Positions 5,884 through 35,507 of a DNA stretch of 36,946 nucleotides are shown piece by piece. The DNA is from Desulfobacterales bacterium (GTDB lineage: Bacteria; Desulfobacterota; Desulfobacteria; Desulfobacterales; G020353555): assembly GCA_020353555.1 (NCBI GenBank), contig CP070697.1:6274658-6311603 (forward strand). Reading direction: 5' to 3'. Made by a program: the position numbers and the translations under genes. The notes beneath the pieces are model-generated. The model made no database searches. It saw nothing but the letters and a program-made list of their open reading frames with translations, and was not told the DNA's origin. Position 1 is the first letter of the stretch; each line of letters starts with the position of its first letter.

Positions 5884-7341
5884 CTATGCACGGACCGGAG
5901 AAGGAGCAGACAGTGCATTATGGACGATGATTGTTTTTTGTTCCGTCATATCATTGAGTGTGTCATGCAGGCCCTCGCGGCCGTGACCGCTGAGCTTGAT
6001 CCCTCCAAACGGCAGGCTTTCGACTCGAAGCGCGGAAGACCAGTTGATAATGACTCCGCCAACTTCAAGTTTATGGGCGACGTCAAGGGCTCTGGATATA
6101 TCGTTGGTAAAAATAGCGGCCTGCAACCCGTAAGGACTGTCATTGGCCATTTCGATGGCTTCGTCAGCAGATTCGAAAGGAACTAACGGCACCACCGGTC
6201 CAAAAGTTTCCTCGCGGAAAAGCTTTGCCTCTGCAGAAATGTCGGTCAAGACCGTCGGTTCGAAAAAGGCATCTTTCCGATTTCCCCCGACCCATATCTT
6301 GGCTCCCGATCGGACCGCCGCGCGGACAACCTCCTCCACCTGGCGGGCAGCCTGTTCGGTAATCAGCGGCCCCACATCGGTTTCTTCGTCCATTTGATCA
6401 CCCATTTTCAAGGCTTTTGTTTTGCGGGTCAGAATCTCAGCGAAACGCTCAGTTACGTGAGAATCGACAAACACCCGTTTGACGGCACAACAGATTTGTC
6501 CGTTGCCGCGTGCCAATCGACCTAAAATGACGGCATCCGCAGCCTTCTCGAGGTCGGCATCATCAAATATGATGGTGGCATCGTTGCCGCCCAGCTCCAG
6601 GTGCACCTTCTTTAAGGTATGCGCAGCCAGTTGTGATATTTTGATTCCCACCTGCGTGCTCCCTGTGATTGTCACCATCTGGATTCCCGGTGCTTTTGCC
6701 AGGTATTCTCCGATCAATTCGCCGGACCCGGTTATCATTTGGTGAGCGGCCTTTGGCAAGCCGGCTTCTTCCATCAATTCCGCAATCTTCAGCAATGTCA
6801 GCGGGCAGTCGCTCGGAGGCTTTGCAATAACGGCGTTGCCTGCCGCCAAAGCCGCCGCTCCCTTATGGGCATACAGTTCAACGGGGTAATTAAACGGAAC
6901 CACGGCCAAAATCACGCCCAAGGGCTGTCTCAGCGTCACCGCAAAGTGTCTTTCCATACCTGGAACTGTATCAAGAGGGACTGTGCGGTTGAAAATCCGT
7001 TTAGCTTCCTCAGCAAATCCCCTGAAGATACGAATAGAAGCTGACAGCTCCTCACGGGTTTGGCGAATCGGCTTTCCGTTCTCGCGCGCCAGCAATACAC
7101 TTAATTCCGAACTTTTTCCCTCCATGGCCTGGGCTGTCCGATGTAAAATGGCCGAACGCTCGTAGGCCGGCAGATTTCGCATCCTTTCTTTGCCATGTTG
7201 GGCAGCCGCTAAAGCCCGTTGTGCATCTTCGAGGGTTGCTTCCGGCACCCGATCAATCACGTCGCCACTGGCAGGATTATAAACCTCCCGAAACTTGCCA
7301 TCGGAGGCTTCAATCCATTCGCTGTTTATCAACATTTTCAT
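5884..7341 (-). CDS. NAD(P)-dependent aldehyde dehydrogenase
   Basis: A 485-residue member of the aldehyde dehydrogenase superfamily, close in length and motifs to lactaldehyde/glycolaldehyde and non-phosphorylating glyceraldehyde-3-phosphate dehydrogenases. Visible residues are N151 (VPFNYPVEL), K174 (VIAKPPSD), the general base E249 in LELGG, and catalytic C284 in GQICC; EETFGPVVPLVPF and LPFGGIKLSGHGREG are also present. It oxidises an aldehyde to an acid in the cytoplasm. It is the first gene of the operon with the sugar-type ABC transporter, which suggests that it acts on an aldehyde formed from the imported compound. The start has a GAGAGGGA ribosome site. The exact substrate is not evident. 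Confidence 0.9.
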   Translation of the reverse strand: MKMLINSEWIEASDGKFREVYNPASGDVIDRVPEATLEDAQRALAAAQHGKERMRNLPAYERSAILHRTAQAMEGKSSELSVLLARENGKPIRQTREELSASIRIFRGFAEEAKRIFNRTVPLDTVPGMERHFAVTLRQPLGVILAVVPFNYPVELYAHKGAAALAAGNAVIAKPPSDCPLTLLKIAELMEEAGLPKAAHQMITGSGELIGEYLAKAPGIQMVTITGSTQVGIKISQLAAHTLKKVHLELGGNDATIIFDDADLEKAADAVILGRLARGNGQICCAVKRVFVDSHVTERFAEILTRKTKALKMGDQMDEETDVGPLITEQAARQVEEVVRAAVRSGAKIWVGGNRKDAFFEPTVLTDISAEAKLFREETFGPVVPLVPFESADEAIEMANDSPYGLQAAIFTNDISRALDVAHKLEVGGVIINWSSALRVESLPFGGIKLSGHGREGLHDTLNDMTEQKTIIVHNALSAPSPVRA

Positions 7342-7416
7342 AGTCGTTCCCTCTCTTGCTTGGACTGCCCGGTTTCCCGTGGCGCGAAAGTAAAGAACGC
7401 AGTTTTATCTGGTTTA

Positions 7417-7443
7417 AATATAAAAAACGCACGCTGATTGCAA
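7417..7443 (-). promoter_or_regulatory. Possible promoter of the aldehyde dehydrogenase/ABC operon
   Basis: On the minus strand a TTGCAA hexamer (7438-7443) is followed after 15 bases by TATATT (7417-7422) in an AT-rich patch about 75 bases upstream of the operon's first ATG. The spacing is shorter than ideal, so this is only a candidate sigma-70 site. Confidence 0.25.
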
Positions 7444-7572
7444 GAAGATCTGACTGTTCCGAGATGATTGGGCTTGCAAGTCCCAAAGATTCTCGTTATT
7501 TTTGGCGAGGCCAACCGCTCCCACCCCCACCCGGATCCGAATCTCGCCGCGGCCGGAGAGCTCAAAAGAGGT

Positions 7573-8271
7573 ATGATCAAGAAAATCGTAGTGGGAAACG
7601 CACTGATCAGCTGCATCTGGCTTCAGGCCTGCACCGAGCTGCTGGTGCCAGGGACAGTCGCCGGCGCCGGTGAAATGTATCGATACACCACCACCAATAT
7701 TGCCAAAAAAAAACTGATGGGCAATATTAGTCAGGTCAACGCGGCCGCCCGAAATGCGCCAAAGAAAATGGCGATTCGACTGCATTCGGTGGACCCCGCT
7801 GATTCCGAAACCCAAATGATCGCTTCAACTGTCGCGCTGGATATCACCATCAATCTGATAACGATCACCGCCGCCACAACCAAGGTCACGGTAAAAGCCC
7901 GTCGCGGATACCCACAACCGCTATACTTATTCCTATGGCGAAACCCGGTTTGAAGACCAAGTGACCTGGGCCGGAGACCTCTTGCAATGGTTTGAGGGCA
8001 AGCGCGATGGTTTCTTCAAGGTCGACATGGGAACCGCTTTGAAGGATTATACGCAATGCTTCAGCTGCGACTGAAGGCAGTCTCCATATCCCAGACCCAG
8101 CTGGTTCAGCTTGTTCCATACACGGTCATTCCCCACAAATCCTCACCCCCGGCAAAAATTCATTTAAAGTACGGATTCAAATCGATGTGCCCAAACGGCG
8201 GCTGCAGACGCAACCGACAATATTGCCCGGACCTCAATATATTCTTGACTTTGGGCAAAATAAAATCTTAA
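7573..8271 (+). pseudogene. Decayed lipoprotein gene(s), N-terminus DUF3568-like
   Basis: An ATG at 7573 opens a reading frame with a lipoprotein signal (lipobox LQAC at about residues 17-20), then GAGEMYRYTTTNIAKK and ITAATTKVTVKA, which resembles small DUF3568-type lipoproteins by eye. After about position 7900 the frame runs into an unlikely tail and stops at 7953. Sense resumes one base over at 7907 (RYTYSYGETRFEDQVTWAG, then LLQWFEGKRDGFFKV) until TGA at 8072-8074. Further pieces follow in other frames (SISQTQLVQLVPYTV near 8090-8135; RRLQTQPTILPGPQYILDF near 8190-8255). Repeated frame changes point to a pseudogene, or to errors in the sequence. It lies between two divergent operons. Family assignment is tentative. 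Confidence 0.4.
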
Positions 8272-8533
8272 GGGTTCGTGTGGGGACTTGGCTGCTGGAT
8301 GATGGATCGTCGGGCCAGGACTGCGGTTTGCTGCTGGCAACCACTGAGGCCCGACAGTCTTCACAAACAGCCGGAGACGGTCAAAGCGCCTGCGCTGTTT
8401 CGGCTGGTATCGGAGTTTGGAAACGCGCGCAGCCGCAAACACCCGCACGCGCTTCCCTGAGACCGACGCCTTAAAGACAAAGTTCTCCTTGGACGCCCAC
8501 AATACATAAACGACCCAAGCGAAGCGGATCATC
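8272..8533. other. Spacer before the amidohydrolase operon
   Basis: There is no supported gene here. It follows the decayed lipoprotein remnants and leads to the first amidohydrolase. I see no strong ribosome site or promoter for that gene; its ATG at 8534 is preceded only by purine-poor sequence. Confidence 0.4.
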
Positions 8534-9781
8534 ATGCAAAAACCGACTCCATTCGTCTTAAAGAATGTCGTGATCATTGACGGTACAGGTGCCGCTCCGA
8601 TCGGCAGCGGTTCAGTGGTCGTGGAAGGTGACCGGATCAAAGAGGTTCTGCCGGGCGCGCCCGGTCGGATTCCCGCGCAGGCCGCGGTCCTGGACGGCCG
8701 CGGGCAGACCCTCCTGCCCGGGCTGATAGACGCTCACGTTCATGTTGCCTCCTCTGAAGCCAACCCCATGGAACAGCAGCGCCGCAATTATCCGTCCATA
8801 CAGGTTATCAACACCGTAAAAGTTCTCGAAGAAACCCTGATGCAGGGGTTCACCAGCGTGCGTGACTGCGGCGGCGCTGATCCGGGCTTCCGGGTGGCGC
8901 AGGAACAAGGCCTGATCCGTGGGCCGCGACTGTCTGTGAGCGGTCGCTTTATCTCTCAAACCGGCGGCCACGGCGACTTCCGCCTTCCGACGGAGATCTA
9001 TGACCCCCGGGAACTTCCCGCCGGGATGGCCGGCGGCGTGTACGACGGGGTGGACGCGGTTCGCAAGGCCGCCCGAGAGCAGCTTCGCAGCGGCGTCGAC
9101 TTTGTCAAAGTCATGGCCGGCGGTGGTTGCATGTCGCCGGCTGATGAGATCGATACCAGCCAGTACAGTCTGGACGAGCTCAGAGCCGTGGTCTGGGAAG
9201 CCGAAGCCGCCGGCAAATACGTTGCGGCCCACTGCTATTCGGATCGCAGCATCATCAACAGCGTCAAGTCCGGCATCCGCACCATCGAGCACGGTAACCT
9301 GTTGACCCAAGCAGGGGCTTTGGCGATCAAGGAGGCGCAGGCCTATCTGGTACCCACCATTGTCACCTATGAAGTCATGCCGGAGATGGGCCACAAGCTC
9401 GGCGTCCCCGCGAACAATTTGCGCAAGATGATCCAGGCGCGCGATCACGGCCTGGAGGCCCTATCAATCGCATACCGCAGCGGGTGCAAGATTGGCTCCG
9501 GAAGCGACTGTCTCGGTCCCATGCACGTGTTCAAAGGCCGGGAACTGGAGATCCAGGCGAAAGTCATGGGGCCCATGAATGCCATTGTGGCCGCCACCAA
9601 GACGAATGCTGAAATCATCGGCCAAGCGGATGATTTGGGCACGATCGAGGCGGGCAAACTGGCCGACCTGATCCTGGTGGACGGCGATCCGCTCAAAGAT
9701 ATCGGGCTGATCCAGAACTTTCACGAAAAGATAACGGTAATTGTGCAGGGCGGCTGTTTCTACAAAAATCTGTTGGCCTGA
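8534..9781 (+). CDS. Amidohydrolase (imidazolonepropionase/prolidase-like), first tandem copy
   Basis: This 415-residue cytoplasmic metal hydrolase belongs to the COG1228 amidohydrolase group. It has the full binuclear metal set: H68 and H70 in DAHVH, K192 in DFVKVMAGGG (the lysine usually carboxylated), H233 in AAHCYSD, H253 in TIEHGN, and D325 in GSGSDC. The C-terminal LGTIEAGKLADLILVDGDP is the typical beta-sandwich signature. Characterised relatives include Xaa-Pro and Xaa-Arg/Lys dipeptidases and cyclic amide hydrolases, so the substrate may be a dipeptide, blocked amino acid or lactam. It is followed 66 bases later by a very similar gene and then by a Dpp-type transporter, which suggests uptake and cleavage of one class of amides. 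Confidence 0.9.
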   Translation: MQKPTPFVLKNVVIIDGTGAAPIGSGSVVVEGDRIKEVLPGAPGRIPAQAAVLDGRGQTLLPGLIDAHVHVASSEANPMEQQRRNYPSIQVINTVKVLEETLMQGFTSVRDCGGADPGFRVAQEQGLIRGPRLSVSGRFISQTGGHGDFRLPTEIYDPRELPAGMAGGVYDGVDAVRKAAREQLRSGVDFVKVMAGGGCMSPADEIDTSQYSLDELRAVVWEAEAAGKYVAAHCYSDRSIINSVKSGIRTIEHGNLLTQAGALAIKEAQAYLVPTIVTYEVMPEMGHKLGVPANNLRKMIQARDHGLEALSIAYRSGCKIGSGSDCLGPMHVFKGRELEIQAKVMGPMNAIVAATKTNAEIIGQADDLGTIEAGKLADLILVDGDPLKDIGLIQNFHEKITVIVQGGCFYKNLLA

Positions 9782-9847
9782 AGACAGGCGACGATCATTG
9801 GGAAATTATGGAATATAAGGTGGTTTTCGATAACCAAGGAGACGCGG

Positions 9848-11095
9848 ATGAATGAACCCAGAAAAACAATCGTCTTTGAGAATGCAGTGATCATCGACGG
9901 CACGGGGGCCGAGCCGGTCGAAGGCGGTACCGTCGTCGTTGAAGGGGAACGAATCAGAGAAGTGTTGGATGGCCCGCCCGGCCACCTGCCTCCGGGTGCC
10001 GAGGTCGTGCCGTGCCGCGGCAAGACGTTGATCCCTGGACTAATCGACGCCCATGTCCACATCAGCTCGGTGGAGGCCGATATCGGAGAACAGCAGCGCC
10101 GCAACTATCCATCGGTGCTCGTCATTCGAACGCTTAAAATCATGAAGGAGTGTCTCGATCAAGGCTTTACCGCAGTTCGGGATTGCGGTGGCGCCGACGC
10201 CGGGTTCAGGATCGCAACGCAAACCGGACTTGTACCCGGGCCACGGCTTGCGGTCTGCGGCAAGGGCCTGTCCATGACCGGCGGCCACGGAGATGGTCGT
10301 TTGCCCACAGAGTTTCACAACCCGGTGAATTTTCCGGCCGGACTGTCTTGCGTCGTGGCCGACGGGGTGGATGCCTGCCGCAAAGCGGCTCGCGAGCAAC
10401 TGCGTCAGGGAGCGGATTTCATCAAGGTTATGGCCGGCGGCGGCTGCATGTCACCGGCGGACGAAATCGATACCGCCCAGTACAGCCGGGACGAGCTCAA
10501 AGCCGTAGTCTGGGAAGCCGAGTCAGCGGGAAAGTATGTCGCCGCTCACTGCTACTCGGATCGCTCGATCCTGAACAGTGTTGAGTCCGGCATCAGGACG
10601 ATCGAGCACGGTAACCTGATGACTGAGGCGGTTGCCTGCAAGCTCAAGGAGGCAGGCGCCTGTCTGGTGCCGACCGTGGTCGCTTACGAAGTGATGTCTG
10701 CGCTGGGCGAGAGCTACGGTGTGCCCCACATATACATCGCCAAAATCAGGCAAGCCCGGGAAAAAGCACTTGAGTCGCTTGCGGCAGCTTACAAGGCCGG
10801 TTGCATCATTGGTTCGGGTTCCGACTGTCTCGGCCCCATGCAAGTTCACAAAGCCAAAGAGCTCGAGCTTCAGGCTAAAGTGATGGGCCCCATGGGTGCC
10901 ATCGTCGCTGCCACAAAAACCAACGCCGCGATCATCGGCTGGGAGAAAGATCTGGGCACGATCGAAGCCGGCAAGCTAGCCGACTTGATTCTGGTTGACG
11001 GAAACCCCCTTGAAAACATAGCCATCCTGCAGGACTATCAAGAAAGACTGACGGTCATTGTCCAGAACGGCCGGTTCTACAAAAATATCGCCTGA
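9848..11095 (+). CDS. Amidohydrolase, second tandem copy
   Basis: Also 415 residues and collinear with the preceding amidohydrolase; by eye about two thirds of positions match, without gaps, so the pair arose by tandem duplication. All metal ligands are kept (DAHVH, DFIKVMAGGG, AAHCYSD, TIEHGN, GSGSDC). Differences cluster in likely substrate-facing parts, for example SGRFISQTGGHGDFRLPTEI in the first copy against CGKGLSMTGGHGDGRLPTEF here, and around LVPTIVTYEVMPEMG/LVPTVVAYEVMSALG. The ribosome site AAGGAG lies 8 bases before the ATG, far better than that of the first copy. The two enzymes may handle related substrates of different side chain. Confidence 0.9.
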   Translation: MNEPRKTIVFENAVIIDGTGAEPVEGGTVVVEGERIREVLDGPPGHLPPGAEVVPCRGKTLIPGLIDAHVHISSVEADIGEQQRRNYPSVLVIRTLKIMKECLDQGFTAVRDCGGADAGFRIATQTGLVPGPRLAVCGKGLSMTGGHGDGRLPTEFHNPVNFPAGLSCVVADGVDACRKAAREQLRQGADFIKVMAGGGCMSPADEIDTAQYSRDELKAVVWEAESAGKYVAAHCYSDRSILNSVESGIRTIEHGNLMTEAVACKLKEAGACLVPTVVAYEVMSALGESYGVPHIYIAKIRQAREKALESLAAAYKAGCIIGSGSDCLGPMQVHKAKELELQAKVMGPMGAIVAATKTNAAIIGWEKDLGTIEAGKLADLILVDGNPLENIAILQDYQERLTVIVQNGRFYKNIA

Positions 11096-11132
11096 TCGCA
11101 ACAGCCGGTATTTGCCCAGTCCGGTTTGACCG

Positions 11133-11162
11133 GATCGTTCCCGGGGCCGAATCGGCCCGATC
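11133..11162 (+). other. GC-rich inverted repeat between amidohydrolase and binding-protein genes
   Basis: GGGCC (11144-11148) and GGCCC (11154-11158) around a five-base loop are flanked by GATCG at 11133-11137 and CGATC at 11158-11162. No T run follows. It could attenuate or separate expression of the transporter genes, or be chance in GC-rich DNA. Confidence 0.25.
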
Positions 11163-11225
11163 AAATCGTGGCCGCACGACCCAGCGAGTGGGCCCTTCGG
11201 CGGTCATCATATTATGTCAGGAAGC

Positions 11226-11237
11226 AAAGGAGGTGAT
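11226..11237 (+). promoter_or_regulatory. Near-perfect Shine-Dalgarno sequence without a start codon
   Basis: AAAGGAGGTGAT matches the complement of the 16S rRNA 3' end over its whole length, but no ATG, GTG or TTG stands at a usual distance after it. It lies about 73 bases before the ATG of the binding-protein gene, which has its own AAAGGAGG site. It might be a ribosome standby or leader site. Confidence 0.3.
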
Positions 11238-11310
11238 ATCGCAACACAGCAAACGACGACTGAGTTTGACGCTATGATTAACCCGATTTCTGTCAGAAAA
11301 GGAGGCCACG

Positions 11311-12942
11311 ATGCGTATCAGAAGAAAGCTTAAAGAAGTCGCTTGGGTGCTGGTCGCGCTGGGTCTATTCCTGGGCCTTGCGGGCACAGGCCAGGCTGCT
11401 GAGTCAGGCGGGACCATCATCGAGGCCATCGCCACCGAGCCGACCAATCTTAACACCCTCAAGGCGGCGCGCAGACCGGAGTTCACGATTCTGCACATGA
11501 TGTTCGAGCCGTTGTTCACGGTAAACAAGAAGCTTGAGATCGAGCCGTTGCTGGTAGATTCCTACAAGGTTTCCGAAGATGGTCTGATCTGGACATTCAA
11601 GATCAAGGATGGCATTAGCTTTCACGACGGCACACCATTGAACGCCGAGGCGGTCAAGTTCTCGTTAGAACAGGATCAGGCCGGAAACCAGGGCGCCCGG
11701 ATCTCAGCCATCAAGGAAATCAAAGTGGTCGATGACATGACGGTCGACGTTGCTCTGAAGCATCCCTACCCCGTTTTCTTGACCGCCTTGTCCAACCCCA
11801 ACATAACCATTTTTTCTCCGACCGCGTACCAGAAAGCTCCCCAAGACTGGGGCAGTAAGGTCCTGGTTGGTACGGGCCCTTACATGTTTGAGGAGTGGAA
11901 ATCCGGCGATCGCGTGAGCATGAAGAGAAACCCAAGCTACAAACATGGTCCTTCCTTTGTCACGGACAAAGGTCCGGCCTACGCTGACCAGTGGATTATT
12001 CGGTTCATTCCCGAAATCGCCACGCTGATTGCCGAGCTGACTTCAGGTGAGGTCGACCTGTCCGACTACCCGACCGAGCGCGACGTGGATCGACTCGAGA
12101 AAGCAGCCGAGACCGACGTCATTGTGGATAAGTCTACGGTAGCGGTCTACATCAACATCAACTGTTCATCCGAAAATAAGCCCTTCGACGATCCAAGAAT
12201 GCGCTCGGCACTGTGTCACGCGATCAACGCCGGCGCGGTCCGCAAAGCGGCCATGAACAATATCGGTGATCCGCTGTATACCTCCATCTCGCCCCTGACC
12301 ATGGGCTACGACCCTGCTTCGGCGGAGATCGCCAAGCCATTGGTCGAGTACAGTCCCGAAAAGGCCGCGGCTATCCTCGACGAGCTCGGCTGGAAGGATA
12401 GCGGCAAAGGCTACCGGGAAAAGGACGGCCAACCCCTGGAGGTCGAATTCTTGGCCTTCAGCATCCCCAAGTTCAAGCGCATCGCCGAAGTCGCCACGCC
12501 CATGCTGGAAAAGGTCGGTTTTAAGGTCAACCTGAAAATCCTGGAAGCCGGCGATCTTTATGAGCGGACCCTGAAAGGACAGCACGACCTGTTATCGACT
12601 TCTTTGGTCGGCAGCGCCGGTATTGCCCTGGACGACATGGTGACAACCCTGCATTCCAAAAATCTGGGCACCATCGCCCAGTGGGCGCATTACAGCAAGC
12701 CGGAGATGGACAAGCTTTTGGATACCGCCTTGTATGACCTGGACCCCGACAAGCGCGCCGAGGCCCTCAAAGAGGCGCAGGAAATGGCTGCCAGGGACGT
12801 TGTCTGCATTCCGATCGCCAACGCCATGGAGATCTTTGGGTACAAGAAAACCGTCGGAGGAGTGGAAAACTATCGGACGCACCCCTGGGCCTACAACCAG
12901 GCCGACGAAACCAGAGCTCTGGAGTTGTGGCAAGGCAAATAA
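11311..12942 (+). CDS. DppA/OppA-type peptide ABC transporter substrate-binding protein
   Basis: A 543-residue periplasmic binding protein of the SBP_bac_5 family. A signal peptide covers about residues 1-30 (VLVALGLFLGLAGTGQAAES). Family landmarks are EPLLVDSYKVSEDGLIWTFK, ISFHDGTPLNAEAVKFS, GTGPYMFEEWKSGD and MRSALCHAINAGAVRKAAMN. It binds a peptide or similar solute and delivers it to the DppBCDF-type complex encoded directly downstream. The ATG has an AAAGGAGG site at good distance. The substrate range of this family includes dipeptides, glutathione, opines, nickel chelates and sugars; the adjacent amidohydrolases favour a peptide or amide ligand. Confidence 0.9.
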   Translation: MRIRRKLKEVAWVLVALGLFLGLAGTGQAAESGGTIIEAIATEPTNLNTLKAARRPEFTILHMMFEPLFTVNKKLEIEPLLVDSYKVSEDGLIWTFKIKDGISFHDGTPLNAEAVKFSLEQDQAGNQGARISAIKEIKVVDDMTVDVALKHPYPVFLTALSNPNITIFSPTAYQKAPQDWGSKVLVGTGPYMFEEWKSGDRVSMKRNPSYKHGPSFVTDKGPAYADQWIIRFIPEIATLIAELTSGEVDLSDYPTERDVDRLEKAAETDVIVDKSTVAVYININCSSENKPFDDPRMRSALCHAINAGAVRKAAMNNIGDPLYTSISPLTMGYDPASAEIAKPLVEYSPEKAAAILDELGWKDSGKGYREKDGQPLEVEFLAFSIPKFKRIAEVATPMLEKVGFKVNLKILEAGDLYERTLKGQHDLLSTSLVGSAGIALDDMVTTLHSKNLGTIAQWAHYSKPEMDKLLDTALYDLDPDKRAEALKEAQEMAARDVVCIPIANAMEIFGYKKTVGGVENYRTHPWAYNQADETRALELWQGK

Positions 12943-22856: not shown

Positions 22857-23264
22857 TTAAACGCCTTGCTCCGGTGTAGCTTCGTCCTTCAAGACGTTCA
22901 ATGCCTGCCGATAGGCGGGATAGCGCGGGTTATCGATGGCCAGTCTGCCCACGACCGTCTGGCGCAGATGGGCGATCAGGGCCTCGTTTTGGCAGTCCAG
23001 CTCGCCCTCCCGGATTCGCCGGCACAGTTCGGCATTCAGCTCGCTTAAGCGGCCCTCTTGATGCAACAGCCGGCGCAGTCGCTCCTGTTCGGCGCCGTAC
23101 AGCCGCGGGCCGTGCTTCAGTTCGCGCTCCACGACGGCCAAGACGTTGATCGCAACCCGGGTATGAAAAGCGGTGCGCCCCTCCACGACCGGCGTAATTT
23201 GGTCTTGCAGAAATTCGCGCACCGCTTCAACCAGTTCTTCGATGGTGGGTCTATCGGCGTTCAT
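22857..23264 (-). CDS. DUF6285 protein
   Basis: This 135-residue protein has the hallmarks of DUF6285: an N-terminal RPTIEELVEAVREFLQDQI, the central FHTRVAINVLAVVERELKHG, and a C-terminal LAIDNPRYPAYRQAL. The function is unknown, but such proteins are usually encoded next to aminoglycoside-phosphotransferase-like kinases and acyl-CoA enzymes, as here: the kinase gene ends only 13 bases upstream. It may be a partner of that kinase. The start has AAGGAA nine bases before it. Confidence 0.75.
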   Translation of the reverse strand: MNADRPTIEELVEAVREFLQDQITPVVEGRTAFHTRVAINVLAVVERELKHGPRLYGAEQERLRRLLHQEGRLSELNAELCRRIREGELDCQNEALIAHLRQTVVGRLAIDNPRYPAYRQALNVLKDEATPEQGV

Positions 23265-23277
23265 CCCACGCGTTCCT

Positions 23278-24267
23278 TCACGTGATGAGATTCAAGAGAT
23301 CGATTTCGGTTTCCGATACCCGACGCCCAATGGCGGCCAGTTCCACCGAGCGGGCGGCGCCCGTTAAATGGGCCAAGACCTGTTCGAGGCAGATGATCCC
23401 CCATTTCAACGACCCGAATACCTCCCAGAATCGAACAATCTGCGGATCCACCGGCCCGCCCCCGGCCGCTTCGTAGGCGGCAAAGAGTTCGGCCCGCTCG
23501 CCGAATCCGCCCACCGGTTTAGCGATGCGGCCGAAACGCCAGGAATTCACACACAGCCAGCCCAGATCCTCCATGGGATCCCCCCAATGGGCCAGTTCCC
23601 AATCCAAAACGGCCCGAATACCCTCGGGTCCGACAATGAAATTGCCGTTGCGGAAATCCCCATGAACCAGGGTCGGTGCGCGCGTGGGCGGCAGGCGTTT
23701 GTCCAGCCAACGAAAGGCCAGTTCAAACACCGGACGGTTTTCGCCGGAGGAATCATACTTTGCCCGATAACGCTGGATTTGCAGCGGCGGCGGCAGGTCT
23801 TCCAAAGGCGGCAGACGGTCTTGCGCCAAGGAATGGATTTGAAAAAGAATTCGGCCGCATTGCCGGGTCATGCGGCGGCGCGCTTCCGCATACTGTTCGT
23901 CGCGCAGGATCCGCGAAGGCAGCGATTCACCGGCGATGCGCTCCATCACATAGCCCGTTCCGATTCCCTCAACTTGATCAAAAATCAGCCATACCTTGGG
24001 AGCCGGTACACCGCTTTGGTTGGCGGCCCGCTGCAATTGGGCTTCCGTCACCTTATCGATCCCCAGGGGGTTTGCAGGATCCTCCTTGCGCGCCAGGCGC
24101 AGGATCAGGGGGTAGCGCTTGTCCCCACAGAGGGCGTCAAACCCCCAGGTCTCGGCCACGGCACCGCCGGCAAGCCGATGCAGATCGACCACCGCGGCCG
24201 AACATCCGAGATGACGGGAGACGGCTGCCGCCAGGTTGGCCTGCAACTGCCCGGGCGCTAAAACCAT
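23278..24267 (-). CDS. APH/choline-kinase-like phosphotransferase (ACAD10/11 kinase type)
   Basis: The 329-residue protein has the kinase fold of aminoglycoside phosphotransferases. Catalytic residues are H202, D204 and N207 in VHGDFRNGNF and D222 in VLDWELAHWGDP; a nucleotide-loop region is at AGGAVAETWGF and LILRLARKE. Members in acyl-CoA gene clusters resemble the kinase domain of ACAD10/11, which phosphorylates 4-hydroxyacyl-CoA. A hydroxyacyl substrate is therefore plausible but not proven. The ATG at 24267 follows AAGGGAA; a longer form from 24336 would overlap the upstream gene and lacks support. Confidence 0.85.
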   Translation of the reverse strand: MVLAPGQLQANLAAAVSRHLGCSAAVVDLHRLAGGAVAETWGFDALCGDKRYPLILRLARKEDPANPLGIDKVTEAQLQRAANQSGVPAPKVWLIFDQVEGIGTGYVMERIAGESLPSRILRDEQYAEARRRMTRQCGRILFQIHSLAQDRLPPLEDLPPPLQIQRYRAKYDSSGENRPVFELAFRWLDKRLPPTRAPTLVHGDFRNGNFIVGPEGIRAVLDWELAHWGDPMEDLGWLCVNSWRFGRIAKPVGGFGERAELFAAYEAAGGGPVDPQIVRFWEVFGSLKWGIICLEQVLAHLTGAARSVELAAIGRRVSETEIDLLNLIT

Positions 24268-24286
24268 CGGAAATTCCCTTTGCCGG

Positions 24287-25129
24287 TCAGGTCGATCCGA
24301 CCTCCGCCACGGCATTTCCCAGCACGACCTTGCCATCCGGGGTTTTTACCCGAATGATGTATCGGCCGTTTTCCCGCTTCCAGCCTTCCGTGATCAACGT
24401 TTCATCGGGAAACACCACGTTCATGAACCGGGCGGCAAACGACTTGAAGCGGGCGGGATCACTTGCCCCAACAGCATGCAGAATGGCCCGGCCGGCATGA
24501 CCAAAGGTGCAGAGACCATGCAGAATGGGGCGCTCGAGTCCTCCCCTCCGGGCCCACGCCGGATCGATATGCAGCGGATTTTTATCGCCGCTGAGCCGGT
24601 AGAGCGCGGCCTGATTGGACGAGGTGGGATATTCCACGCGAAAGTCGGGGGACTGCCCTTCCGGCGGATCGAACCGTTCGGTCTGCAGTCCTCTTTCACC
24701 TCCGAAGTTTCCCGCGCTGCGGTCAATAAGCACGACCTTGTTTTCAAAAAGCAGTTGGTCGCTGGCATCGTGGGTCTCCAGGCTTAGGTTCAGCACCGCG
24801 CCCTTGTCCCCCTTATCATAAACCGCATCGCATATCCCCGAGGTATACACGGTTCCTGAAGAAGGAATCGCAGCGTGCACAATGGTCTTTTGCTCGCCGT
24901 GAAGCACGGCCGGCAGATTGAGACCCAAGTCGGCCATCAGCGTCATCATGCAGGGAAGCAAAGGAATGACCGCGTATGTGGGGAACACTTTAAGGTTTTT
25001 CTCGTAGATAAAATCAAGTTCCTCCACCCCGGCCCCGATACCCAGCGCATAGAGAATGACGTCGTCCTGATCATAGGTGAAGGGGATTTTCTCCGTCTTT
25101 TTTGCGATTAAATCCAGATTGAGGGCCAT
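24287..25129 (-). CDS. MaoC-type enoyl-CoA hydratase 2
   Basis: A 280-residue double hot-dog hydratase like the C-terminal half of peroxisomal D-bifunctional protein. The hydratase 2 motif YRLSGDKNPLHIDP is present, with D182, N184 and H187, and the N-terminal repeat starts with IPFTYDQDDVILYALGIG. It adds water to a trans-2-enoyl-CoA to give (3R)-hydroxyacyl-CoA, for oxidation by the SDR encoded just upstream. The start has AAGGAG. The 147-base gap to the SDR gene holds nothing recognised. Confidence 0.9.
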   Translation of the reverse strand: MALNLDLIAKKTEKIPFTYDQDDVILYALGIGAGVEELDFIYEKNLKVFPTYAVIPLLPCMMTLMADLGLNLPAVLHGEQKTIVHAAIPSSGTVYTSGICDAVYDKGDKGAVLNLSLETHDASDQLLFENKVVLIDRSAGNFGGERGLQTERFDPPEGQSPDFRVEYPTSSNQAALYRLSGDKNPLHIDPAWARRGGLERPILHGLCTFGHAGRAILHAVGASDPARFKSFAARFMNVVFPDETLITEGWKRENGRYIIRVKTPDGKVVLGNAVAEVGST

Positions 25130-25276: not shown

Positions 25277-26107
25277 TTACATCGACAATCCGCCGCTCAC
25301 CAAAATCACCTGCCCCGACACATAGTCGGCCAGGGGTGAAGCCAAAAACAGAATGGGCCCGGCGGCCTCCTCCGGGGTCCCCGGCCGGCCCAACGGAACC
25401 ATCAGAGTCATGACTTGGCGCTGGGCTTGGGGGATGCCGACGGGCACCTTCTCGCCGTCGCGTTCGAGATCTTCCGCTTCTTCCTTAGCCTTCGTCAAGC
25501 GGGTGTCGATCCAGCCGTAAGCGATGGCATTGCATTGAACATTGAATCGGCCCCATTCTTTGGCAATGCTTTTGGTAAACCCCGATAGCGCCGATTTAGC
25601 CGCGGCGTAGTTGGACTGGCCCGCATTGCCACTTGTTCCGGACATGGAGGAAATGTTGATGATTTTCCGGGCTACGGCGCGACCCGATCGCTCAATCTCG
25701 CGTTTGGCCGCGTCACGAAAAAAAGGAGCGGCCGCCCTGATAAGTTTGAAGGGCGCTTTGACATGAACGTCCATCATGGCATCCCACATTTTATCGGTCA
25801 TTTTGTGAATCACCCCATCCCAGGTGTAGCCCGCGTTGTTGACAAGGATATCAATGCCGCCAAAGGCGTCCGCCGCCGCCTGCACGATGCCGGCGGCAAA
25901 ATCATCGGCGGTGACATCGCCCACATAGGCCACGGCCTCACCGCCCGCCCCTTTTATTTCCTCAACCGTTTGACCCGCCGGTGCGGGGTCGATGTCACTT
26001 ACCACCACCTTCGCCCCTTCCCGGGCAAACTTCAGCGCGGCGGCCTGTCCGATCCCTCTCCCGGACCCCGTGATGACGGCGACTTTGTCCTGCAACATAT
26101 TTTCCAT
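25277..26107 (-). CDS. SDR-family 3-hydroxyacyl-CoA dehydrogenase
   Basis: The 276-residue short-chain dehydrogenase has the cofactor motif TGSGRGIG (13-20), NNAG (90-93), serine at 153-154 in NISSMSG, and Y167/K171 in SNYAAAKSAL. D38 after the second strand favours NAD over NADP. It resembles FabG and the dehydrogenase half of D-bifunctional protein. Beside the MaoC hydratase it probably oxidises a (3R)-hydroxyacyl-CoA to the 3-keto form for the thiolase encoded upstream. The ATG at 26107 has AAGGAAAG; a longer start at 26161 would run to within four bases of the thiolase stop and has no need. Confidence 0.9.
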   Translation of the reverse strand: MENMLQDKVAVITGSGRGIGQAAALKFAREGAKVVVSDIDPAPAGQTVEEIKGAGGEAVAYVGDVTADDFAAGIVQAAADAFGGIDILVNNAGYTWDGVIHKMTDKMWDAMMDVHVKAPFKLIRAAAPFFRDAAKREIERSGRAVARKIINISSMSGTSGNAGQSNYAAAKSALSGFTKSIAKEWGRFNVQCNAIAYGWIDTRLTKAKEEAEDLERDGEKVPVGIPQAQRQVMTLMVPLGRPGTPEEAAGPILFLASPLADYVSGQVILVSGGLSM

Positions 26108-26165
26108 CTCGGCTTTCCTTTCTAATCCGGTGCGCTCGCATCGCTGGAGGCTCGTCAACAAACCC

Positions 26166-27371
26166 CTAATCGATTCCGAGAATCGCTATCGCCGCCACGT
26201 TTTGATGCGGCATGCCCCCCAAATTATGGGTCAGTCCCAGCCGCGGGTTCTTCACCTTGCGCTCCTCCGGCACCCGTTCCAGCAGCTGTTCATACATGGC
26301 ATAAATCATCCGCAGCCCCGAGGCCCCGATGGGATGCCCGAAACATTTCAAGCCCCCGTCCACCTGGCAGGGAACTTGGCCGTTCAGATCATAAAACCCG
26401 CCCATGATATCTTCGTAAGCACCGCCTTTGGGGGAGATATGCAGATCCTCCATGGTGACCATCTCGGTGATGGAAAAGCAATCATGGACTTCGCACATAC
26501 TCAGCTCTTTGCGCGGATCTTTAACGCCGGCTTCCTCGTAGGCTTTGGTCGCCGCGATGCGGGTCGTGACAAAATGGGCGCCGTCCCAGCTCGTGCCGAT
26601 GGCCTCTTCACCGGAGCTGACCGATACGGCCAGGGCCTTGACTTTGACGATGTTCTGATTTTGCTTCAGATCTTTGGCGATCGCCGGTGTGGTGATGAGG
26701 GCGCAGGCCGCGCCGTCACTCACCCCGCAGCAGTCAAAAAGCCCCAGGGGATAGGCGATCATGGGCGCGGCTTTAATCTGCTCCTCGGTAACCGCCTTAC
26801 GCAAATGGGCCTTGGGGTTTAAGGCACCGTTGGCATGACTCTTGGCCGAAACATGCGCCATGGCATCTTTGATTTTTTCCATGGGAATGCCCCATTTGGC
26901 GCTGTAGGCCGTGGCCAGTTGCGCGAACATGCCCGGCGCGGTCATGTTGGCACTGATCATGAATTGCCGAACACCCATCCCCACGCTGGCGGGCAAGCCC
27001 CCGTAGCCGGTGTCCTTTAATTTTTCCACTCCCAACGCCAGGACGATATCGTAAACGCCCGCCGCCACGGAATAGCAGGCCGCCCTGAAGGCTTCCGTGG
27101 CCGTCGCGCAATAGTTTTCCGTTCGCGTCACCGGTATATAGGGTAATTTCAACGCCACCCCCAGCGGAACCGCCGCTTTGCCCACGTTGATCTCATCGAT
27201 ATGGGTGCCGATATAGGCCGCCTCGATTTCTTTTTTTTCGATACCGGCATCCGCCAGGCATTCGACAAAAGCTTCGGCCGCCAGATCTTCGGCGTACGCT
27301 TCCCACCGTTCACCAAACCGGGTGCATCCCATTCCCAGTATTGCCACCTTATCTCGGATTCCCTCAGCCAT
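26166..27371 (-). CDS. Thiolase-family acyl-CoA acyltransferase (SCP-x/archaeal type)
   Basis: This 401-residue thiolase has the nucleophile C88 in ENYCATATEAF, H296 in CEVHDCFSI, and H346 in KCFGHPIGASG. It belongs with SCP-x-like and archaeal thiolases rather than FadA. Such proteins often need a DUF35 partner, which here is fused to the HMGCS-like protein encoded directly upstream (stop and start adjoin at 27371/27372). It should cleave a 3-ketoacyl-CoA with CoA, though related DUF35-associated proteins in steroid degradation are aldolases that lack the nucleophilic cysteine kept here. The start has AAGGAGG. Confidence 0.92.
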   Translation of the reverse strand: MAEGIRDKVAILGMGCTRFGERWEAYAEDLAAEAFVECLADAGIEKKEIEAAYIGTHIDEINVGKAAVPLGVALKLPYIPVTRTENYCATATEAFRAACYSVAAGVYDIVLALGVEKLKDTGYGGLPASVGMGVRQFMISANMTAPGMFAQLATAYSAKWGIPMEKIKDAMAHVSAKSHANGALNPKAHLRKAVTEEQIKAAPMIAYPLGLFDCCGVSDGAACALITTPAIAKDLKQNQNIVKVKALAVSVSSGEEAIGTSWDGAHFVTTRIAATKAYEEAGVKDPRKELSMCEVHDCFSITEMVTMEDLHISPKGGAYEDIMGGFYDLNGQVPCQVDGGLKCFGHPIGASGLRMIYAMYEQLLERVPEERKVKNPRLGLTHNLGGMPHQNVAAIAILGID

Positions 27372-28829
27372 TTATTGTACCTCCTTCATGGGGACCGCCT
27401 TCCAGAAATAGCCGGAAATGTCCCTTTTTTCATCGTAGTATTTGCGGCGAAAACTCATGCTGACCACCATCCCGGTCGCCAGTTCCGCCAGATCACAATC
27501 GGTGAAGTCGAACATCATCTTGCCGCCGCCTTCAAACTCAATCTGGCCATAAATGGCCGGCGGATTAGAGGATGCCGCCAGCATATCACCGGTGAAGCTG
27601 GCAATACGGCCGATTTTATCCGCGAAACGGTAGTCTTCCATTGCCCCGACGGCGCCGCACGCGGCGTTGACACAAACCGCCTGGGGCGGAATCTGAACGG
27701 TGCCGCATTTTTGGCATTTTGTGCCCCACAGACCCAGGACCGTTTTCCGTGAACGCCACAGTGCCGACCAGCGGGTCCAGACGTCTTCCTCGGCGCGCAG
27801 CCCGGCATCGCCCGGCAATATATTGCGCCACACGAGATATTTGGTGTAATTGTCCAACTCCGCCCGGTGGGTCAGGCATTCGGAAATACCTTTGTTGTGG
27901 GCCTTGTTTTTGATATTTCCCGTGACCTCGAAATAAAGGGCATCACATCCGCTGCCGAAGCTGACCAGCAGAAGTCGGTCTCCCGGTTGGGCCGCTTCCA
28001 GGGCGTTGACCAACATCACCAGCGGCTGGGCGGTCCCGCTGTGCCCGATTTCCGCCTGCAGATTATTTTGATCCGCTTCCGGCGCAATGCCCATCAATTG
28101 ATTCAGTTTTTTGCGGGCGGCGGCGTAATGGCAGTCGTAAAGGACCTTGGCAAAATCGGCCATCTTGAGCTCATATTTATTCAGGAGGCCGTTGACGACC
28201 TCCGGGATAAACTGATCATAGCCCAAATCCCGGATCCAGCGATCTTCCCACTGGCGATCATATTTGGCGGACTGCCCGCGATAATGATCGGCAAAATCAT
28301 AGGTAATGGAATAAGACCCCTTGAACTCGGCGATCACATTTTGATCCCCGACGATCACGGCCGCGGCGGCGTCGCCGAAAATCAGCTCCTGGGGCGATGC
28401 CGGCTTGCCCAGTCGGCATTCGGATGCCGTAACCGCGATGTGGTTTAAGCGCTTGGCCTCCACCCCGTCCAGGGCCGACAGCAAGGCGGTTGTACCGGCC
28501 TTGAGGCCGCCGGAAAAATCGGCCGCGCGAATATGATCGTTCAGACCCAGGGCGGCGCCGACGATGCCGGCATTGAGCCTTTCCTTGTAGGGCATTGTGG
28601 TGGAAGCGCAATAGATGCCCTCCACCTTTGAACGGTCCATTCCGGCCAGAGCGTCGCGCCCCGCCGCCACGGTCATCGTGAGACTGTCTTCATCAAAATT
28701 GGCGACCGCTTTTTCGCCCCTGGCATGGGCGATATTGCCCGGGTTCATCCATCCCATCGCTTGATAAACGGCACTCCGCTTCAGCCGGTAGCGCGGTACG
28801 TAACCGCCATAGGAACATATCCCGACCAT
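27372..28829 (-). CDS. HMG-CoA synthase-like protein fused to a DUF35 zinc-ribbon/OB domain
   Basis: The 485-residue protein joins two domains. Residues 1-305 have the thiolase fold of the HMG-CoA synthase/FabH group (MVGICSYGGYVPRYRLKRSA, ELIFGDAAAAVIVG, GHSGTAQPLVMLVNALEAA). Residues 330-485 are a DUF35 domain with a zinc ribbon (C372, C375, C386, C391) and an OB part (IGRIASFTGDMLA, GGGKMMFDFTDCD). In HMG-CoA synthase the catalytic cysteine sits directly before KAGT; here the matching residue is L109 in FSGGLKAGTTAL, so ordinary synthase chemistry seems lost. H234 may match the catalytic histidine. It adjoins the thiolase gene, and a joint complex is likely. The start has AAAGGAGG. Confidence 0.85.
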   Translation of the reverse strand: MVGICSYGGYVPRYRLKRSAVYQAMGWMNPGNIAHARGEKAVANFDEDSLTMTVAAGRDALAGMDRSKVEGIYCASTTMPYKERLNAGIVGAALGLNDHIRAADFSGGLKAGTTALLSALDGVEAKRLNHIAVTASECRLGKPASPQELIFGDAAAAVIVGDQNVIAEFKGSYSITYDFADHYRGQSAKYDRQWEDRWIRDLGYDQFIPEVVNGLLNKYELKMADFAKVLYDCHYAAARKKLNQLMGIAPEADQNNLQAEIGHSGTAQPLVMLVNALEAAQPGDRLLLVSFGSGCDALYFEVTGNIKNKAHNKGISECLTHRAELDNYTKYLVWRNILPGDAGLRAEEDVWTRWSALWRSRKTVLGLWGTKCQKCGTVQIPPQAVCVNAACGAVGAMEDYRFADKIGRIASFTGDMLAASSNPPAIYGQIEFEGGGKMMFDFTDCDLAELATGMVVSMSFRRKYYDEKRDISGYFWKAVPMKEVQ

Positions 28830-31454: not shown

Positions 31455-32807
31455 TTACCAGTCCATCCCGGCCTTTTTCCGCTCTTCCCGAAAGTGGTCC
31501 ATCGTCTCCACAAACGCTTCCACCTTGGAAAGCGCCTCTTCCTCATTGAACAAGCGCAAATCAACGATGTCCCCGGTCACGACCAAGCCCGGAACCTTGA
31601 GACGGTTTTCCAGCAGATCTTTAAGATTGAGCAACGTATAGGTGGCGGCGCGACAGGACATCAGCGGATGACAAAATATGCCATCGGTCCGATAATCATG
31701 GGCCGCCTGGAGGTAGGGCGCCACCATCGTGCCGGTGACAATTGCATGTTTCCGGGAAAACTCAAACGTATCGGTAAATTTTTGATAGGTCAGGCGGGCA
31801 ATACGCTCCAACGGATCACGCACGCCCTGAATTTCCTCCTGCGGGATCGGGATGGGCGCATGATACCCGAAGCTTTCATAGACCATCGCGATTCCGAATT
31901 TCTCCGCCAATCTGTCGAAAAAGCCCAGGCTGTGCCATGGAGGAAGTTCGGCAAACATCATGCGATATTTTTCATTGGGTATCGCGCCGATGCCTTTGTC
32001 GGCCTTGTCTCGAACTTCCGCATGCACTCTTTGATAAAACGCATAGGCTTCCGGATCGTAGGGCAAGTAAAAATGGGCCAGCATGATCGCCCAAAAGTCC
32101 TGCGCAACCATGGGGGAAGGGACGGCCCGGCGCAGCAAATCGACTTCGTGGGCCAGCTGCAAGGTCTTGAACGTCGTATCAACGATTTCTTCCAGCTTGT
32201 CCCAATCCATTTCCCGGCCTAAAAGCTTTTCCAGGAAAGCCACGAATTCTTTCAAATGCGCCACCATGAATCGGATGGTCTTGGCCTTCTGGTCGGGCAG
32301 GAAAAATTCCGTAACTCCCGGGAAGGGAAGTTCGAGGGTCCATTGCGGGACATCCAAGTAACGCTTCAACCCTTGAAACCATTTAAACCGGGCGTCGCAC
32401 GTCGCCCCCGATCCAATGAGCACCACCGGCTTCGGCATCCCGCCCGCGGGGGCATCCGGGGGAATCGCCATATCGTTTTCCGCCATATAACTGGCATAAC
32501 CGAAGCTGTTGCGGGCGTATCCGCAAAGGGTCGCGGGGAAGCCCTCGCTGTCACTGCGTTCCAGATAGGGCTCCGCCAGACGCGATGCCGCGCAGAAGGC
32601 CCCATAATTTTCCGGAAAGACCAGTTCAAGACCCATGGCCTTGGCGATCAGTTCGCCTTCATACCACGTCACCATGGACCATCCCACCGGACGACCTTCC
32701 ATCTGGGCCTTATGGGCATTTTTGATGAGTTTTTTGCCGAAATAACCGGCCTCCCTGGCGGTTTCCATACTCTTGGCCGCCGTGGCTTTCTTTTTTTCTG
32801 CTTCCAT
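31455..32807 (-). CDS. 2-hydroxyacyl-CoA dehydratase/benzoyl-CoA reductase-type subunit (HgdB/BcrC family)
   Basis: A 450-residue member of the HgdB/BcrC/BadD family, oxygen-sensitive enzymes that bind a [4Fe-4S] cluster and use one very low-potential electron for dehydration of 2-hydroxyacyl-CoA or ring reduction. Likely ligands are C95 in ATLCGYARNS, C137 in GATCDARFKW and C385 in HPLMSCRAATY. The active enzymes usually have two such subunits plus an ATP-driven activator with a BadF/HgdC fold; neither is encoded in this window. It could act as a homodimer or with subunits encoded elsewhere. The start has AAGGGA 11 bases upstream. Confidence 0.88.
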   Translation of the reverse strand: MEAEKKKATAAKSMETAREAGYFGKKLIKNAHKAQMEGRPVGWSMVTWYEGELIAKAMGLELVFPENYGAFCAASRLAEPYLERSDSEGFPATLCGYARNSFGYASYMAENDMAIPPDAPAGGMPKPVVLIGSGATCDARFKWFQGLKRYLDVPQWTLELPFPGVTEFFLPDQKAKTIRFMVAHLKEFVAFLEKLLGREMDWDKLEEIVDTTFKTLQLAHEVDLLRRAVPSPMVAQDFWAIMLAHFYLPYDPEAYAFYQRVHAEVRDKADKGIGAIPNEKYRMMFAELPPWHSLGFFDRLAEKFGIAMVYESFGYHAPIPIPQEEIQGVRDPLERIARLTYQKFTDTFEFSRKHAIVTGTMVAPYLQAAHDYRTDGIFCHPLMSCRAATYTLLNLKDLLENRLKVPGLVVTGDIVDLRLFNEEEALSKVEAFVETMDHFREERKKAGMDW

Positions 32808-33542: not shown

Positions 33543-35507
33543 CTATTTGTCTTTCTTGGCTTCGATCTTTTGAAAGTATTTCGGCGGCGGCCCGCTCACC
33601 CATTCGAAATCCTCTTTTTCATCGAACGGTGGGAACAGCCGGGGGGGCTTGGGCCATTGTTCGTACCCCAATGCCTTGAAGATGTTACGGGTTCGCTCTT
33701 TAAAACTGTCCATACCGGTCCAAAGGTCTTCCGGAAGGTGATGCAGCATCACAAAAAAAAGGTTTTCATAGGTCGCGCGATCCCACAGCGTGTGATATGA
33801 ATCCGGATCCGCATGGATGTCCACAATCGCGGTCTTGCCCGAGTTAAAGGCCCGTTCCAGAGCGGGCACCAGCTCGTCATGGGTTCGGACGGTTTCTCCG
33901 TGACAATCCATATGTTTGTACATCTCAGCGTAAGGGATGCGACCCTCCAGGGTGCCCATCCCCCTGTCTGTGTCCCTCACATGGGGGTTTTGGGCACCGT
34001 GCCAATCTCGCCCGTACATGGCATTCCAGCCGCCGATCCAGGCCCCATTGTTGTGCACCACATAGACAATGGGGAGATTCTCCCGGCGCGCGGTTTCGAT
34101 ATCACCGCCCAATCCGCCGATCCCGGCATCGCCCAGAATAGATATGACCGGTTTGCCGGGCCGGCCGACCTGGGCGCCGATGGCCATGCCCACGCCGTGG
34201 CCCACGCCCCCCTGGATGCCGGCATCCAGAATACCGCCGGTTACCTGTGACTCGAATCTTTCGCTGACATAGGGGGAAAGGGTAAACGAATCCAGAATGA
34301 CGGTGGCCTCGGGGGCGGCTTTGTGGAGATAGTCCGCGATCAGCGATGAAGCCAGATCGGGACTGACCTGACCGGGCAGAGTGTATTGTTGTCGGATCTC
34401 TGTCAAGCGGCCTTGCAGCTTCTCCTGGGCCTTCTTTTTGATTTCGAGAATTTCATCCCGCCAGGCTGTTTTTGCGGCAAATCGATCGGCATACTTTTCC
34501 CGGATCGCCTTGTTCAACTTCTTCAGTGTCGCGTTGACATTGCCGATGGCTTCGATGTCCGTGGTGACTTCAGGCCAGATCTCCAAAGGTTCTTCGGTCA
34601 CCTGGACATAGCGTTTGTCTGCGCCCCATTGGCCGTATTGTTCCAGGACGTCGATCCTGAGCCCCATAACCATGTAGCGATCCGCCAGGGCGAAGGCCTT
34701 GCCCCGGGCGTCGCCGGCGACATGATGCGGATGGTTTTCAGGCACACTGCCGCGGCACGCCCGTCTTTGGTGAATCGGGACGTTCGTCAGCTCCGTGAAT
34801 TCCTTTAAAGCCGCCCCACAATCCGGCCACCTTCCTCCATGACCGACAACGATCAAGGGCCGTTTAGCTTCCAGTAACCAGCCAATCATACTGTCGATTT
34901 CTTCGTCGCTGGGAACGGGCTGCGGCAGTTCAGCGAGGGTGCGGTGTCTCATTTCGAGGTTGTAGTTCACTTGTCTTCTCGGATCCAACAATGATTGAGG
35001 TGCAAATTCGGTGTAATTCAGCGGGATCTCAATTGCCACAGGTGCGGGAGGGTATGCCATGCAGTCGCGGGCCGCTTTTCGAATGTAAAAGCAAAAGGTA
35101 CTTGGGTCCTCTATGAATTTGGCCCATTTGCAAAATTGCTTATATAGTTTGTCGGCTTCCAAAGGCTGAAAGGCGAAACGATCCCTGTCCGACAGCGGAA
35201 CCTGACCCAAAATACACATAAGGGGGCTGTTACTCAGTGCCGCCTGATTGACCGCCGGCAGCAAATTCGCCGCCCCAGGCCCCACCGTTGCCTGGCAGAG
35301 ACCGATCTTTCCGGTTACCTTCGAATACGCCTCGGCGGCATAACCGGCGGAGTCTTCGCGTCGAAAGTGGATCAACCGGTTCCCGTACATACACCAATAG
35401 TCATCAAAGCTGTTCATATGCCCGCCCGTGATGCCGAAATTGGTGTGAATGCCCTCTTCCATTAATGCGCGGACCATAATCTGCGGTCCCCAAACTAATG
35501 ATCCCAT
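33543..35507 (-). CDS. Thiamine diphosphate-dependent lyase/decarboxylase (acetolactate synthase superfamily)
   Basis: The 654-residue enzyme has the three ThDP domains in order: a PYR domain with catalytic E51 in HFRREDSAGYAAEAYSKVTG, a central domain (VVGHGGRWPDCGAALKEF), and a PP domain with the metal motif from G459-D460 to N486-N487 (ILGDAGIGGLGGDI ... VVHNNGAWIGG). It resembles oxalyl-CoA decarboxylase, 2-hydroxyacyl-CoA lyase and acetolactate synthase. It is longer than these (550-600) because of a C-terminal tail of about 60 residues rich in proline and aromatics. Next to a 2-hydroxyacyl-CoA dehydratase-type gene, a 2-hydroxyacyl-CoA or 2-keto substrate is attractive, but this is inference. 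The start has AAAGGAGG. Confidence 0.88.
   Translation of the reverse strand: MGSLVWGPQIMVRALMEEGIHTNFGITGGHMNSFDDYWCMYGNRLIHFRREDSAGYAAEAYSKVTGKIGLCQATVGPGAANLLPAVNQAALSNSPLMCILGQVPLSDRDRFAFQPLEADKLYKQFCKWAKFIEDPSTFCFYIRKAARDCMAYPPAPVAIEIPLNYTEFAPQSLLDPRRQVNYNLEMRHRTLAELPQPVPSDEEIDSMIGWLLEAKRPLIVVGHGGRWPDCGAALKEFTELTNVPIHQRRACRGSVPENHPHHVAGDARGKAFALADRYMVMGLRIDVLEQYGQWGADKRYVQVTEEPLEIWPEVTTDIEAIGNVNATLKKLNKAIREKYADRFAAKTAWRDEILEIKKKAQEKLQGRLTEIRQQYTLPGQVSPDLASSLIADYLHKAAPEATVILDSFTLSPYVSERFESQVTGGILDAGIQGGVGHGVGMAIGAQVGRPGKPVISILGDAGIGGLGGDIETARRENLPIVYVVHNNGAWIGGWNAMYGRDWHGAQNPHVRDTDRGMGTLEGRIPYAEMYKHMDCHGETVRTHDELVPALERAFNSGKTAIVDIHADPDSYHTLWDRATYENLFFVMLHHLPEDLWTGMDSFKERTRNIFKALGYEQWPKPPRLFPPFDEKEDFEWVSGPPPKYFQKIEAKKDK

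Follow-up and report, generated by a model that had tools for sequence, protein, structure and literature searches.

A thiolase and an HMGCS-like/DUF35 fusion protein that look like a fused, fatty-acid-breakdown version of the archaeal and PhlACB thiolase complexes

Two adjoining genes on the reverse strand of the window (the whole 36,946-nucleotide stretch of DNA that was analysed, from a bacterium of sulfate-reducer type) probably encode one heteromeric thiolase, composed of a catalytic thiolase, a DUF35 clamp and a dead scaffold resembling HMG-CoA synthase (HMGCS), which would carry out a beta-oxidation-like cleavage. In appearance the pair is a variant of the archaeal and PhlACB thiolase complexes in which two parts are fused and which serves fatty-acid breakdown, and on the precedent of these two systems a heteromeric thiolase appears to be the most likely model. 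What the sequences themselves provide is a set of residue losses and retentions, a strict pairing of the two genes, an operon context and natural fusions.

We infer a physical complex, a role for the dead domain and a catabolic direction, as follows. The thiolase subunit would be the catalyst, with C88 accepting the acyl group and H296, C298 and H346 acting in thiolysis (compare SCP2-type thiolases), and the DUF35 part of its partner would clamp it. The HMGCS-like part would be a pseudoenzyme, incapable of Claisen chemistry, and might be kept because it completes the assembly and walls a shared CoA/substrate cavity, as has been proposed for PhlA. The unit would close a beta-oxidation-like cycle by splitting 3-oxoacyl-CoA into acyl-CoA and either acetyl-CoA or propionyl-CoA, its supply coming from the adjoining MaoC hydratase and short-chain dehydrogenase.

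The thiolase and its fused partner

The thiolase (26166..27371, reverse strand, 401 aa) scored 646.4 bits against the NF004810 model (cut-off 403) and thus belongs to the PRK06157 family. Its residues C88, H296, C298 and H346 are intact and were invariant among its relatives in two alignments (68/68 and 74/74). The HDCF motif is intact at positions 296-299 of the window protein. The BbsB equivalog model gave 139.4 bits against a cut-off of 750.

The fusion gene (27372..28829, reverse strand) encodes 485 aa. Its stop codon TAA directly abuts the ATG of the thiolase, which starts at the next base, and an RBS-like AAGGAGG (27380..27386, reverse strand) overlaps the final codons of the fusion gene, shortly before the two codons (junction ...AAGGAGGTACAATAAATGG). 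The same junction, with a ribosome-binding site inside the upstream gene, was also observed in the related loci L003, L005, L007, L008, L016 and L032, and this recurrence suggests that translation of fusion and thiolase is coupled. The ORF coordinates bear out the adjacency of the two genes, which had been pointed out in the earlier note. In L016, otherwise a close relative on the MAG chromosome CP070694.1, a stop interrupts the thiolase frame (11459-12661), possibly as a result of a sequencing error or of gene decay.

The earlier note had also described the partner as a DUF35 domain fused to an HMGCS-like domain, and both the Pfam/NCBIfam profiles and the PDB matches agree with this description. 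PhlA and 6esq_I matched residues 2-335 of the fusion, and 6esq_E matched residues 358-483. The N-terminal, HMGCS-like domain (residues 1-336, the end being approximate; 27822..28829, reverse strand), delimited by alignments and Foldseek, has lost its catalytic residues. It falls below the cut-offs of two HMG-CoA synthase models, NF003274 (207.8 bits, cut-off 244) and TIGR00748 (154.1 bits, cut-off 353.35). The C-terminal half matched zf-ChsH2 and OB_ChsH2_C and has the DUF35 layout of a four-cysteine zinc ribbon followed by an OB fold, PF12172 and PF01796 both exceeding their cut-offs. The zinc ribbon spans residues 367-392 (27654..27731, reverse strand), and its four cysteines (Cys372, 375, 386 and 391) are all kept in at least 95% of relatives. 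The OB fold corresponds to residues 404-461 (27447..27620, reverse strand; PF01796, 27.9 bits, cut-off 27.1).

An AlphaFold monomer of the fusion alone was obtained with medium confidence (pLDDT 66.9, pTM 0.59). Searched with Foldseek, this medium-confidence model had PhlA (5m3k_A), the archaeal HMGCS (6esq_I) and MucA of MucABC as its nearest structures, and the matches to PhlA and HMGCS (E ~1e-18, probability 1.00) indicate an HMGCS/KAS III fold of the thiolase superfamily. These closest solved relatives are all subunits of thiolase/acyltransferase complexes.

Lost and retained residues of the synthase-like domain

The active-site columns were located by alignment with the archaeal HMGCS (PDB 6esq_I), PhlA and 78 family members. 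L109 (codon 28503..28505, reverse strand) aligned without gaps to the nucleophilic cysteine of 6esq. In the 78 members this column is occupied by L, Q, I, V, A, T, M, P or R and by a cysteine in none, so that the cysteine loss proposed in the earlier note stands. The AlphaFold monomer (pLDDT 66.9) places L109 at the N-terminal end of helix 108-124, in the sequence register of the nucleophile. The position of the catalytic glutamate is taken by T77 (28599..28601, reverse strand; T in 75, S in 2 and A in 1 of the 78), and glutamate is found there in none of them. The catalytic histidine is replaced by D232 (28134..28136, reverse strand), in a column dominated by proline (P 53, D 10, Q 7, A 4, H 1, plus others). 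As judged from the alignment, the whole catalytic set is thus gone from the domain, a larger loss than the earlier note had stated.

No alternative active-site cysteine was found in the window protein. Position 108 is a glycine there and a cysteine in just 4 of the 78 relatives, and it was rejected as a replacement. C233, beside the former histidine, is shared by 63 of the 78 relatives, though not by the distant ones, and was not convincing either.

The domain nevertheless carries conserved residues of its own, which count against a role as a pure spacer. Besides T77 these are W194, E195, R197 and R200, in a family-specific motif that reads WEDRWIR in the window protein (residues 194-200; 28230..28250, reverse strand) and W-E-[DE]-R-x2-R as a consensus. 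Each of the four is kept in at least 95% of the 78 relatives and is not conserved in MvaS or PhlA. Purifying selection on both halves of the fusion is strong (dN ~0.1 against dS >0.9 with the nearest relatives), which argues that the dead synthase domain is in use and not decaying.

The same observations could mean that the synthase-like half is still an enzyme, which would act on a CoA ester without a cysteine, for instance by decarboxylating or dehydrating it or by aldol chemistry, with the help of family-specific residues such as T77, E195, R197 or C233, and hand its product to the thiolase. We consider this improbable. The near-invariance of T77 and of W194-E195-x-R197..R200, the strong selection on the domain and the frequency of C233 are in its favor, but conservation would be expected of a CoA/substrate cavity wall too, C233 is not kept in distant relatives, the three catalytic residues of HMGCS are all gone and PhlA, the nearest structural relative, has no catalytic role (PMC6392133). 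Between the functions that the earlier note had offered for the cysteine-less half, scaffolding and CoA binding come out as the likeliest. No evidence was found for decarboxylation or aldol cleavage by this half, and the thiolase retains the HDCF motif, which is altered in steroid aldolases.

Gene neighbourhood and known complexes

Downstream of the pair lie a short-chain dehydrogenase (25277..26161, reverse strand; PF13561), probably the 3-hydroxyacyl-CoA dehydrogenase of the same module, and a MaoC enoyl-CoA hydratase resembling MFE-2 hydratase 2 (24287..25129, reverse strand; PF01575, PF22622), both of which recur beside the pair elsewhere. Upstream are genes for an ADP-forming acyl-CoA synthetase-like protein, an enoyl-CoA hydratase, a 2-hydroxyacyl-CoA dehydratase-like subunit and a TPP enzyme. 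No acyl-CoA dehydrogenase adjoining the pair was found in the window. In Desulfosarcina alkanivorans the pair is preceded by two acyl-CoA dehydrogenases and an acyl-CoA ligase and followed by an SDR, a MaoC and two further acyl-CoA dehydrogenases. The gene row SDR-MaoC-fusion-thiolase was observed in Sphingomonas and Variovorax, and the neighbours of the proteobacterial and Rhodococcus pairs include acyl-CoA dehydrogenases and hydratases as well as CoA ligases and transferases. The context is one of general acyl-CoA metabolism, from which no substrate could be deduced, and no polyketide synthase was seen among the annotated genes of the window or in the plasmid neighbourhoods.

The three parts of the window pair are also those of PhlACB (Pseudomonas protegens, Chromobacterium sphagni; PDB 5m3k, 9skh), which combines an HMGCS-like subunit without Cys and Glu, as in the window fusion, with a DUF35 subunit and a catalytic Cys-His subunit of thiolase fold. 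PhlA has Gly115 and Cys83 in place of the Cys and Glu, the ligand is touched by residues of PhlC only, and PhlA, PhlB and PhlC line one cavity (PMC6392133); the same picture was confirmed in a second enzyme, where PhlC alone is catalytic (PMC12955522). The window domain is 30.5% identical to PhlA. PhlACB is made of three separate polypeptides and forms a heterododecamer, A2C2 joined by PhlB, whereas the HMGCS-like and DUF35 parts of the window pair, known from its genes, are one chain. The complex acts with PhlD in diacetylphloroglucinol synthesis, in contrast to the acyl-CoA degradation context, devoid of phl-like surroundings, of the window pair. In view of PhlACB, a bacterial precedent for a thiolase/DUF35/cysteine-less HMGCS-like complex (PMC6392133), the suggestion that the window might hold an undescribed type of bacterial thiolase complex could not be upheld. 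MucABC (Streptococcus macacae, PDB 9vbo) looks similar: the window proteins find matches in its HMGCS-like as well as in its thiolase-like subunit, and MucA, in our alignment, also lacks Cys and Glu. It is more distant (E ~1e-16), consists of separate subunits and is an acyltransferase according to its PDB title only.

By the precedent of PhlACB and MucABC, the pair could run towards synthesis or be a CoA-independent acyltransferase, so that a carbon acceptor would be acylated and no 3-oxoacyl-CoA cleaved. The identical three-part composition and the position of PhlA as closest solved relative of the synthase-like domain speak for this. The operons, with their dehydrogenases, hydratases and CoA-activating enzymes and their lack of polyketide genes, make it unlikely, as does the thiolase, which is nearer to 7yvy, the archaeal acetoacetyl-CoA thiolase and BbsB (171, 171 and 140 bits) than to PhlC (only 72-74 bits).

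Other known systems share parts of the arrangement. The archaeal complex (6esq) has the same three parts and the same thiolase catalytic residues as the window pair, and DUF35 joins its thiolase and HMGCS, which have a common CoA site (see the discussion in PMC12329534). Its HMGCS is active and its DUF35 protein separate, whereas the window domain, 27% identical, is catalytically dead. BbsAB, the benzoylsuccinyl-CoA thiolase (PDB 7pxp), resembles the window pair in joining a thiolase to a DUF35 zinc-finger partner, in serving anaerobic acyl-CoA breakdown and in being encoded alongside short-chain dehydrogenases, but has no HMGCS-like part. In the steroid aldolases Ltp2-ChsH2 and Sal-Shy, a thiolase fold is clamped by a DUF35 domain fused to a hydratase domain. 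These enzymes catalyse retro-aldol reactions, and their motif is changed (YDCY in Sal, PMC12329534); since the HDCF motif is intact in the window thiolase, such an activity was ruled out for it.

That DUF35 occurs fused to thiolase-superfamily, SDR, SCP2 and hot-dog domains has been on record since 2010 (PMC2954200). Our literature search found no paper on the present fused, degradation-linked family or on its SDR/SCP2-extended form. Thiolase/DUF35/HMGCS-like complexes, including bacterial ones without the cysteine, are already known, and what is new is the widespread fused, degradation-linked family with its SDR/SCP2 extension.

Pairing across genomes and extended fusions

Among 395 Desulfobacterota genomes, counted regardless of kinship, 110 had the fusion, 114 the thiolase family and 105 both. 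A contig scan yielded 21 fusion loci, assigned to Desulfobacterales, Desulfobacteraceae, Desulfosarcina, Desulfatibacillum, Syntrophaceae, Deltaproteobacteria or Proteobacteria. The thiolase was found downstream, on the same strand and within 3 kb, in 88 of the 94 fusion loci listed; among the other 6 it was present in 1 and frame-broken in 1, and the contig ended in 2. Beyond the phylum, the pair occurs in Alphaproteobacteria, Betaproteobacteria and Rhodococcus, and it was found on plasmids of Sphingomonas, Variovorax, Azoarcus, Novosphingobium, Sphingobium, Tistrella, Niveispirillum, Sphingopyxis and Rhodococcus. There the fusion is annotated as 'OB-fold domain-containing protein' or 'synthase III C-terminal domain protein' and the thiolase as 'acetyl-CoA acetyltransferase', so that a probable two-subunit enzyme is labelled as two unrelated proteins. 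The retention of a dead synthase domain with a thiolase across phyla suggests that dead condensing enzymes are standard in DUF35 thiolases and not peculiar to PhlA.

Since the thiolase frame directly continues that of the fusion, the two were also modelled as a single chain, with the stop codon read as glycine and 15 relatives in the alignment; the result was unreliable (mean pLDDT 42.5, pTM 0.36) and speaks neither for contact nor against it. That no contact was modelled there would fit two proteins merely encoded together and acting apart, the DUF35 domain serving a different partner, but this is very hard to reconcile with co-occurrence and adjacency that are near-perfect across several phyla and with the DUF35-thiolase contact seen in every solved relative discussed in PMC12329534.

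One group of Desulfobacterota has an extended form of the fusion. Locus L055 encodes an HMGCS-DUF35-SDR-SCP2 polypeptide of 910 aa (8525-11254) and a MaoC-SDR-SCP2 polypeptide (6250-8382, 711 aa counted from the MaoC start), both adjacent to each other and to the thiolase. A long open frame of ~800 to 985 aa was seen in ~18 genomes of the phylum sample. Judging from their domains, the neighbouring genes and the L055 fusions make up a beta-oxidation cycle that uses chemistry of the hydratase 2 type. It is conceivable, though we hold the idea only tentatively, that a bacterial beta-oxidation metabolon is organised around the pseudo-synthase/DUF35 protein as its hub, holding together an (R)-hydratase, an (R)-dehydrogenase, the SCP2 carrier and the thiolase, with the acyl-CoA unreleased from hydration to thiolysis; the two long polypeptides of some Desulfobacterota would make such a passage without release explicit. 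The pair offers a test of the role of the dead subunit, and substrate channelling could be probed with the natural SDR/SCP2 fusions.

Several other genes of the window, all on the reverse strand, deserve mention. The enoyl-CoA hydratase (PRK08260, 30508-31356) has a relative of 53% identity on a plasmid of Sphingomonas paeninsulae (L073:6638-7501), again close to the fusion-thiolase pair, which may hint that the substrate is shared. The 2-hydroxyacyl-CoA dehydratase/benzoyl-CoA-reductase-like D-component (HGD-D, 31455-32807) stands alone: the interval up to the next gene has no same-strand ORF of at least 120 aa and thus no visible partner subunit. The TPP enzyme (33543-35507, 654 aa) resembles acetolactate synthase, oxalyl-CoA decarboxylase and 2-hydroxyacyl-CoA lyase and has ~85 additional residues past its last TPP domain. 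At 22857-24336 a gene for a DUF6285 protein adjoins a phosphotransferase (APH) gene, the start of which overlaps the end of the MaoC gene. Finally, a stand-alone TIR-domain protein (849-1898) gave a weak Thoeris ThsB-like match.
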